From Bacteroidales bacterium (lineage in GTDB: Bacteria > Bacteroidota > Bacteroidia > Bacteroidales > UBA932), in the NCBI GenBank assembly GCA_017477245.1, contig JAFUWY010000023.1, positions 1 through 55,124 on the forward strand: a DNA stretch of 55,124 nt, given 5' to 3'. This document shows, one piece after another, positions 14,260 through 55,124 of the stretch. The translations under genes and the position numbers were made by a program. Numbering within the stretch: position 1 is the stretch's first letter; every line of letters starts with the position of its first letter. The notes beneath the pieces are model-generated. The model was given only the letters and a program-made list of their open reading frames with translations, was not told where the DNA came from and searched no databases.

Positions 14260-14466
14260 GTAAAAATTCCGGAAATAACATCATGTTTTGCAAAATATTT
14301 TAAACTTTTTCGACACGGAATCCAACCACCCAACTCCGGATTCCTCAATCACTTACACGACCCGTTGAAAACTTTTTTCCGTCATTTTCGACCGGAGCTC
14401 GAACCCCGTAACTCGACGCCCGCCCCCGATCGCCCCCGATCGCCCCGACCTCCCGGACCCGGCGTA

Positions 14467-14568
14467 CATATCGTCCCACGCCTTGGACCCATATGCGCAT
14501 TTTAAGCCATTTTTGCGCATATCGTCCCAAAGTTTGGACCCATATGCACACCTGCCCGCATGTCCCGT
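14467..14568. repeat. Two-unit 51-bp hairpin repeat
   Basis: CATATCGTCCCA begins at 14467 and again at 14518, exactly 51 bp apart, and each is followed by TTGGACCCATATGC, which is roughly complementary to it. The linker between the units is T-rich. The second unit loses similarity after its hairpin. Confidence 0.8.
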
Positions 14569-27020: not shown

Positions 27021-27311
27021 TTAAATATTAGCGTAGAAATCGATCTTGTCCTCACCGGCGAGGGTGATGTACGCCTTCTTGAAGTGATTCATCCGGCCGC
27101 GGAGCAGGCCCGCCTTGGTGTAGCGGCTCTTGCGCTTGCCATGATAATTCACGGTATTGACATCGGCCACGGAGACATTGTACATCTTCTCCACGGCTTC
27201 CTTGATCTGAAGTTTGTTGGCTTTACGATCCACGATAAAGCCGTAACGGTTCAACTTTTCGCCCTGATCCGTCAACTTCTCTGTAACGATTGGCTTAATG
27301 ATAATTCCCAT
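27021..27311 (-). CDS. rplW: Ribosomal protein uL23
   Basis: uL23 forms part of the docking site for trigger factor and SRP at the tunnel exit. The 96-residue protein has [40 protein letters not shown] and [20 protein letters not shown]. It lies 14 bp upstream of rplB. Confidence 0.97.
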
Positions 27312-27323
27312 CTTCGTGTACTT

Positions 27324-27953
27324 TTAGCGCATGTTCCGCTCGGCGAGGATGTCCTGCACACCGTCCACGAGCACCAGGGTGTTGGCGTTCATGATGGCGT
27401 AGGTGTTGATCTCGTCAACGGAGATCACGTCGACCTGCGGGAGATTGCGGGATGAAAGATAGATGTTGGTTGAATTCTGAGGGAGCACGTAGAGCACCTT
27501 GCGGTCGCCGGCCTTGATGGCGTTGGTGATGCCGAGGAGTTCCTTGGTCTTGGGTGCATCCATCGTGAACGGCTCGAGGACGATGATGGCGTTCTCCTGG
27601 GCCTTGTAGGTCAGCGCGGACTTGCGGGCAAGGGCCTTGACCTTCTTGTTCAACTTGTTATGATAGAAACGCGGCTGGGGACCGAAGACGCGGCCGCCGC
27701 CGACGAAGATATTGGCCTTGAGGGAACCGTGGCGTGCACCGCCGCCGCCCTTCTGGCGACCGAGCTTCTTGGTGCTGTGCGCGATCTCGCTGCGGTCCTT
27801 GGTCTTGGCGTTGCCATGGCGCTGGTTGGCGAGGTACTGGACGACGTCGAGGTAGACGGCGTGGTCGTTGGGCTCGATACCGAAGACGTTCTCTTCGAGA
27901 GTCACCTTCTTGCCGGACTGGGTACCGTCAATTTTCAAAACTGCTAATTCCAT
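27324..27953 (-). CDS. rplD: Ribosomal protein uL4
   Basis: uL4 is a large-subunit protein with a tunnel loop; in E. coli it also represses the S10 operon. The 209-residue protein has KTKDRSEIAHSTKKLGRQKG, GGGARHGSLKANIFVGGGRV and FGPQPRFYHNKLNKKVKALA. It ends 12 bp before rplW. Confidence 0.97.
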   Translation of the reverse strand: MELAVLKIDGTQSGKKVTLEENVFGIEPNDHAVYLDVVQYLANQRHGNAKTKDRSEIAHSTKKLGRQKGGGGARHGSLKANIFVGGGRVFGPQPRFYHNKLNKKVKALARKSALTYKAQENAIIVLEPFTMDAPKTKELLGITNAIKAGDRKVLYVLPQNSTNIYLSSRNLPQVDVISVDEINTYAIMNANTLVLVDGVQDILAERNMR

Positions 27954-27957
27954 AACG

Positions 27958-28584
27958 CTAAGCCTCCAAAATTACATAAGAACCTTTGGCTCCGGGGACG
28001 GAACCCTTGACGACGATGAGATTGTTCTCAGGAAGCACCTTGAGCACCTGCAGGTTCTCGACCTTGACGCGCTCGCTGCCCATGTGGCCTGCCATGCGCA
28101 TTCCGGGGAGGACGCGGGACGGCCAGGAGGATGCTCCCATGGAACCGGGGTGACGAAGGCGGTTGTGCTGGCCGTGGGTCTGTCCGCCGACACCGGCGAA
28201 ATGATGACGGTGCACAACACCCTGGAAGCCCTTGCCCTTGGAGGTTCCGGTCACGTCCACGAACTTGACATCCTCGGTGAAGATGTCGGCGACCGTGAAG
28301 GTGGTCCCGAGCTTCAGCTCGCCCTCGAAGTCGGCCTTGAACTCGACCAACTTGCGCTTGGGAGTGGTTCCTGCCTTTTTGAAGTGCCCCATCAGGGGCG
28401 CGCTGGTGTGCTTTTCGGAGGTTTCGCCATAGGCAAGCTGTACAGCGGCATAGCCGTCTTTTTCAACTGTACGGAGCTGCGTAACTACGCACGGACCAGC
28501 CTCGATGACGGTGCACGGTATGTTCTTACCGTCGGCACCGAAAACGGAAGTCATTCCGATTTTCTTTCCAATTAATCCAGGCAT
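27958..28584 (-). CDS. rplC: Ribosomal protein uL3
   Basis: uL3 initiates large-subunit assembly. The 208-residue protein begins [20 protein letters not shown] and has the central extension [20 protein letters not shown] followed by [20 protein letters not shown] and [10 protein letters not shown]. It is the first gene of its segment; rpsJ, normally directly upstream, is 11.2 kb away. Confidence 0.97.
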
Positions 28585-38692: not shown

Positions 38693-38927
38693 TAGAATGT
38701 TTTTAAGAATTTGGTTATTGGGTTGATAAGTATTGACACGGAAAGCGGTGTCCACAGGGAATCCTGCAGGCACCGCATGCTATAATGGGATAAACGATTG
38801 GTCGTACAAATTGGTTTTAGCTGCATTATAGATTCACGCGCGCGGGCGCGCGTTGCATCACGGACCAAAAAATTGTGAAACAACTGCGCACTCTCCGCCA
38901 CATTTTTCCACTGCCGCACCCTGCCCG

Positions 38928-38978
38928 GACAAGTGCCCACGATTTCTACACCGGACATGCTTTTTGTGGGCACCTGTC
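38928..38978. repeat. 51-nt hairpin repeat, copy 1
   Basis: GACAAGTGCCCAC (38928-38940) pairs with GTGGGCACCTGTC (38966-38978) with one mismatch. It is homologous to the copy at 39210 including the loop (ACACCG, CTTTTTGTGG). Confidence 0.8.
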
Positions 38979-39053
38979 AGCTGACCATCCCGGCTCCGGA
39001 CCCAGGATGCCCGGCCCAGGGTATCGCTTTTCTTTTTCGGGCCATCCCCTCGG

Positions 39054-39170
39054 TGGACCAGGTCCACTTTGAATGCCTGTACCAGGTCCACCACCCTCGC
39101 CCCAGAGGCCCTTCAGAGCCACACCAGGTGGACCAGGTACACCCCCTGAAATCCGACCTGGTCCACCTGT
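39054..39170. repeat. Dispersed 117-bp repeat, copy 1
   Basis: It is homologous over its whole length, about 80% identical by eye, to 53534-53651. It contains two hairpins: GGTGGACC/AGGTCCACC (39052-39092) and the perfect GGTGGACCAGGT/ACCTGGTCCACC (39127-39167). Confidence 0.8.
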
Positions 39171-39209
39171 GGACTCCCTCCGGACAAGTCCAGCCGCCTG
39201 ATTCACCAT

Positions 39210-39260
39210 GACAGGTGTCCACTATTCCTGCACCGAACAAGTTTTTTGTGGACACCTGTC
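39210..39260. repeat. 51-nt hairpin repeat, copy 2
   Basis: GACAGGTGTCCAC (39210-39222) and GTGGACACCTGTC (39248-39260) form a perfect 13-bp stem. Relative to copy 1 a T-A pair replaces a C-G pair in the stem, a compensatory change. Confidence 0.85.
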
Positions 39261-39627
39261 AGCCAAAAGGGCGCGAAACGCTGAACTCACCGGGGAGGTA
39301 TCCAAAAATAACGCATATAACGGCACTTTCCCGGACACCTGTCATCTGACAGTCGCAGCCACGATGGCCCGGAGCGAAGCGACCAAGGGGGTTAATCCGT
39401 AAAGAGCCGCTCCGTCCGGGCACGCAAGGTGGCTGATTCCTGCCCGAAAGCCAATATTTCACCATTCCGGCACACAAAGGGTCGTTTCCCTGCCCGGAAT
39501 GGGGAGGAACGGCCAGAATGAGCGGAACGAGCGAAGTAGCGAAACCGCCGGTCGGAACGAAGTGGAGACCGTATTCCCCCTGAAAGGGGGATGTCGCGTA
39601 GCGACAGGGGGTTGGATATAGGACCGC

Positions 39628-53248: not shown

Positions 53249-53321
53249 GCGGAAATAGCTCAGTTGGTAGAGCGCAACCTTGCCAAGGTTGAGGTCGCGG
53301 GTCCGAGCCCCGTTTTCCGCT
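53249..53321 (+). tRNA. tRNA-Gly (anticodon GCC)
   Basis: This is a 73-nt cloverleaf: acceptor GCGGAAA/TTTCCGC, D arm AGCTCAGTTGGTAGAGC, anticodon stem CAACC/GGTTG with loop TTGCCAA giving GCC, T arm GGGTCCGAGCCCC, discriminator T, CCA not encoded. Confidence 0.96.
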
Positions 53322-53421
53322 CAAAGTCAAGCAGTTAGCCATCAGAATCACTCTGGTGGCTTTCTTGTTTTATAGGCCCGACCCGTTCCCGCGCCCCAAA
53401 CAACTCTTTCCCCCTCCGTCA

Positions 53422-53987
53422 GGGGCAACTCCTTCCCCCTCCGTCAGGGGCACTGAGCCCCCTTCTCTGCCCCCGGCAACTGGTTATTCTTGCCACCGGG
53501 GGCACCGAGCCACCTCTCGCTTTAGGCACCGCAGTGGACCAGGTCCACTTTGAAAGCCTGTACCAAGTCCACCGACCCCGCCTCAAAACCCCTTCAGATC
53601 CACACTGGGTGTACCTGGTACACCCCCCCGAAATCCAACCTCGTCCACCTGACAAGGAAGACAACCACATTATCCCCCGCCCGGGACACCGCGGTCTTTC
53701 TCCGTCCCGGTAACCGCTTTTCCCATCCATCAGGGGCACCACGCCCCCTCTCCGCCCCCGGTAGCCGCTTTTCCTGTCCGCCCGGGGCGCCAGAGCCCTT
53801 CTCCGCCCTCGGCAACTGGTTTTTTTCCCTACCAGGGGCGCAGAGCCGCTTCTATGCCCCTGATAACCGGTTTTTCTTCCCACCAGGGGCGTTATGACCC
53901 TTCTATGTCCCTAGCAGCCAGACTTCTTTGTCACGAGGGGCGCTGAAGTTCTTCTCCGTCCCCCGGGAACCGGATCCTCCAACGGCT
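53422..53987. repeat. 51-bp tandem array A, about eight units
   Basis: GGGG-C cores begin at 53447, 53498, (53682), 53733, 53784, 53835, 53886 and 53937: steps of exactly 51 bp on each side of an interruption at 53534-53681. A 25-bp partial unit starts at 53422. Each unit carries GGGGC pairing with a GCCCC-type arm about 20 nt later, then a CCGGTTTTTC-like T-rich linker. Units differ from each other at many positions. Confidence 0.85.
53534..53651. repeat. Dispersed 117-bp repeat, copy 2
   Basis: It begins TGGACCAGGTCCACTTTGAA and ends CTCGTCCACCTG, matching the copy at 39054. It sits inside array A, as if inserted in one of its units. Confidence 0.8.
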
Positions 53988-54032
53988 AAAGGTGCTGAGG
54001 GCCAAAACGGAAAGCCGAAGGGACTGCCTAGC

Positions 54033-54134
54033 GTTCACAACGTCCGTAAAACCGGGACGTTATGAACGAAAACGGCCGAAATCGTGCATAACGTCCGGAT
54101 AACAGGGACGTTGTGCACGGTGCGACAACGATTC
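54033..54134. repeat. Two-unit 51-bp hairpin repeat C
   Basis: GTTCACAACGTCC (54033) pairs with GGACGTTATGAAC (54055-54067); GTGCATAACGTCC (54084) pairs with GGACGTTGTGCAC (54106-54118). The two units start exactly 51 bp apart, and each stem has one mismatch. Confidence 0.85.
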
Positions 54135-54252
54135 CGCGTACTGAGTTCGAGGGCAAGAGAATGTCGGAGGGTACCTGCCGGAGAAGGTTCGGGTAGGTCA
54201 AGACCCTCCTCCAATCTGAACGTCAAGTAGCGTCAAGCCGAATGTCAAGCAG

Positions 54253-54405
54253 CATCAAGCCGGATTCCGACCATTTCCTGCTCGACCTGCCATTTTTCTT
54301 TGGGGTCGAGCCGGATATCGGCCTTTTCCGGCTCGACCCTCTGTTTTCTCCGAAGGTCAAGCAGGATTTCCGCCCTTTCCGGCTCGACCTCTTCTGCTTT
54401 GTATA
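54253..54405. repeat. Three-unit 51-bp hairpin repeat D
   Basis: GCTCGACC occurs at 54280, 54331 and 54382, and its partner arm (ATCAAGCCGG, GGTCGAGCCGG, GGTCAAGCAGG) at 54254, 54304 and 54355. The middle unit forms a perfect 11-bp stem. T-rich linkers follow each hairpin. Short GTCAAG repeats precede the array (54222-54258). Confidence 0.85.
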
Positions 54406-54453
54406 CTGCCACCGGGCAAGCACGGCTATATTCTGCCGCAGGGCAAGCGCGGC

Positions 54454-54602
54454 CGCCGGGAGTTCCAAAACTCCCGGCGAGCCACGCTAACCGCCGCGCT
54501 TGGTTATGCGCGGCGGTGGTGCACCATCGAAACCCTTCATTCCAGAATGAAACACCTAACGTCTCCCCGCAGGGAACAGCCGCGCCGCATATTGCGCGGC
54601 TG
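54454..54602. repeat. Three successive perfect hairpins
   Basis: CGCCGGGAGTT/AACTCCCGGCG (54454-54479), ACCGCCGCGC/GCGCGGCGGT (54490-54517) and CAGCCGCGC/GCGCGGCTG (54577-54602) all pair without mismatch. None has a T-run. Confidence 0.8.
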
Positions 54603-54655
54603 TGATTCGCCCATTGGCATCCCATTTCAAATCCCATCTGCTTCCTTCCCAAAAA

Positions 54656-54764
54656 GCGTGATGAGGAACTAGCTGATTATCAATAAAAACGAAAATCTCT
54701 CGTCCCTCCGGGAGGTACTAGAGATTTCATAAAACATTTATTGTCAATTGTTTGCTCATCACGC
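54656..54764. repeat. 109-nt long nested hairpin
   Basis: Four nested pairs line up in order: GCGTGATGAG/CTCATCACGC (54656-54665, 54755-54764), CAATAAA/TTTATTG (54681-54687, 54737-54743), AAATCTCT/AGAGATTT (54693-54700, 54720-54727) and CCTCC/GGAGG (54705-54715). It could be a structured RNA or the end of a mobile element. Confidence 0.75.
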
Positions 54765-55124
54765 CCACGAAGGAGTAAGATGTCAGGGGGCGGGGAATGG
54801 TTAGATGTATGGTTGGGTGCATGGATGAATGAGTATTTGGTCTATGAGCTACGATAAGAAGGTGAGTCGTCCGCATAGCATAGCATGCTCTCTCCTTTCG
54901 TCACAAGGATCAGATAGCGTGAGGAGGAAAACGTTGATATTCAACAATAATCGAAATAAGGGGTTCTCGTTTCGAGCACCCGATATTTTCCTTTTCATTG
55001 ATTATCAACCTATTAACGCTCACACTTCTTTGAGAGAGGAGGGGCAGGGTGTATGTGTACGTAACGAGGAGTGGTGAGAGGGTATGAAACTACGTGGATG
55101 TGTGGGAGAGACTATGCAGGGCGA

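Follow-up and report, generated by a model that had tools for sequence, protein, structure and literature searches.

Hairpin repeats with a 51-bp step in a Bacteroidales genome and the 51–53-bp spacing of hairpins beside probable REP-associated tyrosine transposases in related genomes

The window analyzed here, a stretch of 55,124 nucleotides from the genome of a Bacteroidales bacterium, ends 3' of a tRNA-Gly gene in a mosaic of short palindromic repeats; further hairpins lie near 14.46 kb and upstream of susC. The features referred to below are:

14463–14549: hairpin pair (14.46/14.47 kb) with a step of 51; the hairpins that precede the RAYT gene C26:180839 as a pair belong to its family
38924–38978: 51-nt hairpin upstream of susC, matching one flank of the Y1 gene C15:15055
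39201–39344: second hairpin stretch upstream of susC, matching both flanks of the Y1 gene C15:15055
53249–53322, + strand: tRNA-Gly(gcc) (ARAGORN, Rfam), with the repeat cluster directly downstream
53431–53532: degenerate units of array A that do not keep the register of its main run (sequence reading)
about 53533–53680: interruption of array A by a different hairpin family (GGTGGACCAGGTCCACC type), found also at about 39052–39169
53681–53991: main run of array A, about six 51-bp units, in register from about 53686 to about 53991
54032–54119: pair C, a REPIN-like doublet of the C16 RAYT, 88 bp in total with a 14-nt spacer
54253–54405: triplet D, three 51-bp units beginning at 54253, 54304 and 54355
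54434–54612: palindromic repeat common to both flanks of the Y1 gene C28:37417
54653–54764: palindromic element of about 110 bp common to one flank of the Y1 gene C43:8278
54916–55027: another, weaker hit of the C43-type element (5e-5)

Tandem Repeats Finder assigned a period of 51 to triplet D and to parts of array A, and the autocorrelation of positions 53401–54420 was highest at lag 51 (0.453), followed by lag 102 (0.35) and lag 25 (0.337). Pair C consists of two 37-nt hairpins (54032–54068 and 54083–54119) with a center-to-center step of 51; triplet D can be written in another register, in which the segment between arms is ATATCGGCCTTTT; and the arms of array A alternate about every 25–26 bp, by sequence reading and autocorrelation, in a BIME-type alternating orientation. 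A first-pass annotation had reported an exact 51-bp step for eight units of array A, for pair C, for triplet D and for the pair at 14467/14518. Sequence reading bears this out for the last three, while in array A about six units are in register and the array is interrupted, with its degenerate units out of register. The two hairpins upstream of susC, described there as each exactly 51 nt long, were called at 51 and 53 nt; this is a hairpin length rather than a step, and these hairpins are of another family. Hairpins of the GGTGGACCAGGTCCACC type, which interrupt array A, recur genome-wide, and two of them, about 75 bp apart, lie at 39052–39169. At the gathering threshold, an Rfam search of the window returned three tRNAs and nothing else.

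The 88-bp doublet is the dispersed unit of family C. Matches to the repeat-cluster stretch number 54 in its own genome, where the C doublet is found at 14 places (13 complete pairs and one single hairpin); one further single C hairpin (C21:7793–7830) appears in a separate listing. About half of the C-family places have unrelated flanks, with similarity stopping at the doublet edge, and seven have flanks in common and look like copies of a larger A–C–D cluster. Three copies of the cluster sit at contig ends of the assembly.

Individual hairpin families are associated with individual transposases. When the flanks of 12 RAYT-like Y1 (HUH/tyrosine) loci of the same genome were compared with the window (all 81 hits being listed), six of eight hairpin families examined in the window matched flanks of one of the 12 genes. 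Array A matches both flanks of the C7 gene (6e-33), which occupies 27034–28017 and has an A-type array on either side, one of 14 and one of 7 units; pair C matches both flanks of the C16 gene (best 1e-22), with a C-type doublet on each side of the gene; and the 14.46 kb pair goes with the C26 gene (3e-27). Both flanks were likewise matched for the susC-upstream hairpins (C15:15055 gene, 1e-8) and for 54434–54612 (C28 gene, 1e-46), and one flank for 54653–54764 (C43 gene, 1e-14). There are weak cross-hits as well: the C26 flank also matches C (6e-7), that of C16 the 14.46 kb pair (0.004) and that of C7 the repeat at 54434–54612 (4e-4). For triplet D no convincing partner was found among the 12 Y1 genes, the best hit being a 21-nt match (E 0.001) to one flank, and the GGTGGACCAGGTCCACC/GGTGGACC hairpin family has no match in the flanks of these genes.

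A period of 51 characterizes particular families rather than the genome at large, as periods of 43, 72–73, 104, 117 and 209 are also present among intergenic repeats. Tandem arrays of 72–73 bp are formed by the GTGGGAAACA hairpin family (L012 2266–2481, L015 1863–2064), which the flanks of the Y1 gene C15:25138 resemble by eye, and arrays of 117 and 209 bp containing GCTCATCACGC (L021 3730–3960, L018 3244–3859) are like the window element at 54653–54764. A 43-bp array of about ten copies (L325 3149–3570) has no hairpin called in its unit, short arrays of about 25 bp of the GTCAAGCCGGCGAATGACGGGG type are seen at L105, beside the C27 Y1 gene, and at L053 16267–16383, and a 51-bp tandem repeat of different make-up (L051 8627–8892), equivalent to 17 codons, is possibly protein-coding. 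A coding origin for the hairpin repeats (51 being 17 codons) was considered and rejected by argument, since the 52- and 53-bp arrays described below would shift the frame.

The two main subfamilies of the transposases are 26–30% identical and homologous (E 1e-15 and 4e-21). Residues H57 and H59 (the histidines of an HUH pair), Y119 and N123 are invariant in 54 stop-free sequences of subfamily 1, and H92, H94, Y150 and N154 in 15 stop-free sequences of subfamily 2; the invariant tyrosine is probably the catalytic one. The class-2 signature Y---NP is absent from both, Y---N being followed by C or S in subfamily 1 and by G in subfamily 2; NP is present, as judged by eye, in the proteins of C27 and C43. 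The NCBIfam model REP_Tyr_transpos (NF047646) matches five of eight proteins at 31.8–38.3 bits, below its curated cut-off of 80, and gives nothing in the other three; the C16 protein matches it at 6.7e-8, under the curated cut-off, and within the C7 subfamily one of 15 proteins matches in a family search, at 0.009. The cut-off of Pfam Y1_Tnp is passed by four matches in the genome, two of which drop just below it in a separate protein scan (two of eight proteins passing there), and further Y1 homologues in the genome were found by similarity. Scanned alone, the C7, C38 and C15 proteins hit no Pfam or NCBIfam family. The structure model of the C16 protein has a mean pLDDT of 87.9 and that of the C7 protein a moderate 74.2; the strand–helix order of the C16 model appears to fit the Y1 core. 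Transposase matches in a sequence/profile search of the PDB were weak (E 0.08–0.09).

Of 250 genomes from the genus, 183 contain proteins related to C16, with distant relatives included (E up to 1e-20), and 145 contain proteins related to C7 at 1e-25. Among 295 genomes of the order, a sample that held few genera of the same family, C16 (E up to 1e-25) matched two, the genome it comes from and, at 30% identity, a congeneric one, so that at the cut-offs used C16-type proteins occur in none of the 293 sampled genomes outside the genus; C7 at 1e-20 matched its own genome alone.

Beside these transposases the step is held at 51–53 in two diverged Y1 subfamilies while the stems turn over. Around 92 subfamily-1 loci (L143–L232 and two from the own genome, taken from best-scoring matches), whose 184 flanks make up the first set, 81 of 198 hairpin pairs lie at a center-to-center distance of 51 (40 pairs), 52 (30) or 53 (11), as against 4.5 under a flat distribution, and every other distance up to 160 was seen at most five times; a pair at 50–53 is present at 53 of the 92 loci and in 71 of the 184 flanks. 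Additional loci, taken from named genomes whose titles mostly point to ruminant-gut Bacteroidales (45 of 80 kept, 35 dropped as already included), gave 30 of 64 pairs at 51–53 (flat expectation 1.5), with a pair at 21 of 45 loci. Subfamily 2 gave 36 of 110 (flat 2.5), a count that comes partly from loci with common TTTGTTCC stems and from arrays, with a pair at 17 of 30 loci. Taken together, 147 of 372 pairs beside the gene with centers 30–160 apart fall at 51–53 against 8.5 expected; distances near 77 (11 pairs) and at 102–106 (34 pairs) also occur, which a lattice with alternating arms would lead one to expect. The caller found no pair at 50–53 at 39 of 92, 24 of 45 and 13 of 30 loci, respectively. 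It sometimes reads the two hairpins of a doublet as a single long one (e.g., at L144 and L156), which lowers the counts; a few counted pairs combine dissimilar hairpins (e.g., L185, L190, L201/L204), loci are partly non-independent (near-identical ones such as L191/L192), and pairs within one array are counted several times. A base-pairing profile around called hairpins, which needs no second hairpin call, has its maximum at 51 among distances 35–79 in all three sets (0.375, 0.378 and 0.479 vs. background means of 0.251, 0.248 and 0.256), with 52 second in two sets.

Stretches of 450 bp located 700–1150 bp from the gene gave 6 of 39 pairs at 51–53 (flat 0.9), a control that is itself somewhat raised, and the other controls gave 0 of 16 (RAYT gene interiors), 1 of 37 (the window), 2 of 56 (G016), 5 of 106 (G065) and 0 of 15 (G013). 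On whole contigs the excess is modest (C26, 3 of 79 vs. 1.8 flat; C42, 9 of 112 vs. 2.6), and we therefore restrict the claim to RAYT flanks rather than the whole genome. It had been proposed earlier that a survey finding periods near 51 bp no more common than others among intergenic repeats would speak against the idea of a shared period; the strong excess beside RAYT genes upholds the idea there, but the two contigs and the existence of other periods do not extend it genome-wide. At 27 loci of other subfamilies retrieved with PF01797, only 1 of 57 pairs lies at 51–53, and the rule is thus not general to Y1 proteins; for five subfamily-1 loci from the same search the figure was only 1 of 14. 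The relative G016 has two 52-bp arrays, of which one, GCCAGGTGG..CCACCTGGC, carries a stem present beside that genome's own RAYT. The second 52-bp hairpin array of G016, GGTGGTCTGC..GCAGACCTCC, lies at L064 3302–3530.

A consensus of 38 non-redundant 51-step pairs from relatives reads (A)GTGC..TAATGTCC-loop-GGACATTA..GCA, then A/T-rich–GGCC–A/T-rich, then a second hairpin ending in GCAC(T). By majority the outer feet read GTGC and GCAC, inverted; the letters G, T, G and C occur in 26, 30, 37 and 23 of the 38 units, which gives three of the four letters of GTGG, and the canonical GT[AG]G tetranucleotide is absent as a majority foot in these units. The GGCC letters of the spacer are present in 32, 28, 28 and 29 of 38 units. 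In subfamily 2, several (but not all) units have the A/T–GGCC–A/T segment in the loop. In the stem, base pairing at columns ±9 to ±14 and at ±16 is seen in 0.74–0.97 of the 38 units vs. 0.28–0.53 expected from column composition, and stem positions outside a conserved GTCC show up to four pair types; the units having been picked by a hairpin caller, the pairing excess is partly built in, and the variety of pair types is not. The stems vary between loci and track the transposase: stem similarity correlates with transposase identity (Mantel r 0.40; none of 2000 permutations as high; 68 loci), its mean being 0.46–0.50 at 45–55% protein identity and 0.98 above 85%. The earlier impression of a shared period without shared sequence is accordingly right for the stems, which are unrelated, and too strong for the feet and the spacer, which the 38 pairs have in common.

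We consider the 51-bp hairpin repeats to be, very probably, REP/REPIN-type elements linked to RAYTs, whereas the first-pass annotation knew of no named element with such properties. Own-genome Y1 (HUH-tyrosine) transposases of the RAYT kind would move and amplify non-autonomous repeats of this type, most families here presumably having a transposase of their own, and RAYTs are the best candidate enzymes for the copying mechanism that had been suggested. The basic unit of subfamily 1 is the 88-bp doublet of two hairpins of about 37 nt with GTGC/GCAC outer feet and an A/T–GGCC–A/T spacer of about 14 nt, and arrays such as A are hairpin plus spacer repeated. We infer that the transposase works on single-stranded DNA and engages the two hairpins simultaneously, a protein complex fixing their distance and the stem drifting with its partner transposase. 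If one complex holds both hairpins, spacing is constrained and the stem is free to drift, which fits steps of 51–53 with strongly diverged stems. It is a tentative but serious possibility that RAYTs in this genus serve as molecular rulers, holding two hairpins on one strand at a fixed 51–53-nt step, and, with the same reserve, that the feature conserved for recognition is length instead of the sequence of the stem. The earlier suggestion that a shared length means that something measures length gains support from the persistence of 51–53 beside two diverged subfamilies.

A step of this kind could also have been inherited without any ruler, from one ancestral doublet of about 51 bp whose stems drifted with compensating changes while its length was kept, indels being rarer than substitutions. 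The homology of the two transposase subfamilies and the A/T–GGCC–A/T segment common to some units are in keeping with such descent, and so is the clade structure of the step: on a FastTree protein tree (129 of 137 proteins kept, 71 with a step label), the label changes 20 times vs. a mean of 27.1 and a minimum of 22 in 500 shuffles. Yet mean stem similarity is down to 0.38–0.50 below 55% protein identity with the step still at 51–53, and other families of the same genome, some of them beside Y1 genes, have other periods, so that length can change; we regard inheritance alone as rather unlikely, though as deserving real weight. Helical phasing on duplex DNA, in which a protein or cruciform array needs hairpins on one helix face five turns apart, draws on the fact that 51–53 bp is about five turns, as the first-pass annotation had pointed out, and on pairing at offset 41, which in each of the three sets exceeds that at every other background distance (0.275, 0.298 and 0.339). 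However, among the 372 pairs, distances of 40–43 (8 pairs) and 61–64 (4 pairs) are at or below the flat level of about 11 per four bins, and offset 62 is outside the five best in every set. By pair counts, helical phase is a poorer fit than a strict length, the small offset-41 signal being a caveat that slightly raises its odds; the five-turn idea is weakened, and we hold it to be very unlikely.

Were the hairpins instead transcribed structures (small RNAs, tandem terminators or mRNA stabilizers), their stability, their T-rich stretches and their position 3' of tRNA genes in two places would be natural; against this stand the Rfam result for the window and the strong link to transposase genes, and an RNA function as the primary explanation seems highly improbable, a secondary RNA role being conceivable. 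Coincidence or cherry-picking of one period among many might appeal to the other periods and to the low counts on contigs C26 and C42, but the first-set excess in RAYT flanks was followed by excesses in both further sets; these counts refute the explanation for RAYT flanks, and we give it almost no credence. The reading we prefer remains that of RAYT-moved elements, with a transposase complex as the possible keeper of distance. An attempt to find an empty site yielded a syntenic tRNA locus without the doublet, but its left flank alone aligned. In two genomes, repeats follow immediately after tRNA genes (window 53249–53322; L079 9820–10270), and a G000 locus matching the left side of L079 has no such doublet in the stretch read.

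Overall, RAYT recognition and movement of REPs, as well as the reason for REP doublets, are unsettled questions that these observations touch. Should the ruler be real, stem specificity would be free to diversify, leading to many private transposase–hairpin pairs per genome. A clade with several private RAYT–hairpin pairs per genome, varied stems and near-constant spacing offers a natural experiment on sequence vs. length recognition, and the RAYT link would explain a class of puzzling intergenic arrays in rumen Bacteroidales genomes.

Several known systems resemble the one described here in part. As far as the available text of PMC3116915 goes, the REPINs of Pseudomonas fluorescens SBW25 share with our repeats the unit of two inverted REPs plus spacer, the RAYT partner and the tandem arrays; the doublets behave as a unit, and distances are fixed within a family (71 bp in GI, 110 bp in GII). 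The two families there have different distances, whereas here 51–53 is common to unrelated stems and two subfamilies, and the foot is GTAG/GTGG there as against a majority GTGC here. The accessible portion of PMC3733652 mentions REP dimers with spacers of differing sequence and similar length. In GTAG/CGTC REP dimers, as described in the text available to us, HH dimers (outward feet) predominate, as they do here, but most spacers there vary between 20 and 100 bp, in contrast to a center step of 51–53 across many stems and transposases; CGTC repeats are reported, in the same partial account, without association to transposase genes, unlike the hairpins here, which flank transposases. BIMEs, in the available part of PMC2817692, have regularly spaced REPs of alternating orientation, as in array A, but several of the families described here have a single lattice of about 25.5/51 bp in common. 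Also similar is subclass 2.6 of TnpAREP/TnpAY1 (mostly Bacteroidetes), for which the accessible text of PMC6006769 describes Y1 proteins flanked by atypical hairpins that lack GT[AG]G and recur at other places of the genome, and gives no step; compared by description only, these proteins have a median of 179 aa and the motif YIH[QN]NP, while ours are about 290–330 aa long with Y---N[SCG]. TnpAREP enzymes cut single-stranded REP substrates near the hairpin in vitro, according to the portion of PMC8266576 available. A literature search with subscription papers and preprints mostly outside its scope returned neither one step across REP families, nor 51-bp Bacteroidales arrays, nor this transposase radiation. 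Thus, the REP, REPIN, BIME and RAYT kinds and fixed spacing within a family are already known; what appears to be new is that families whose stems are unrelated keep one near-constant step, in a transposase radiation of one Bacteroidales genus.
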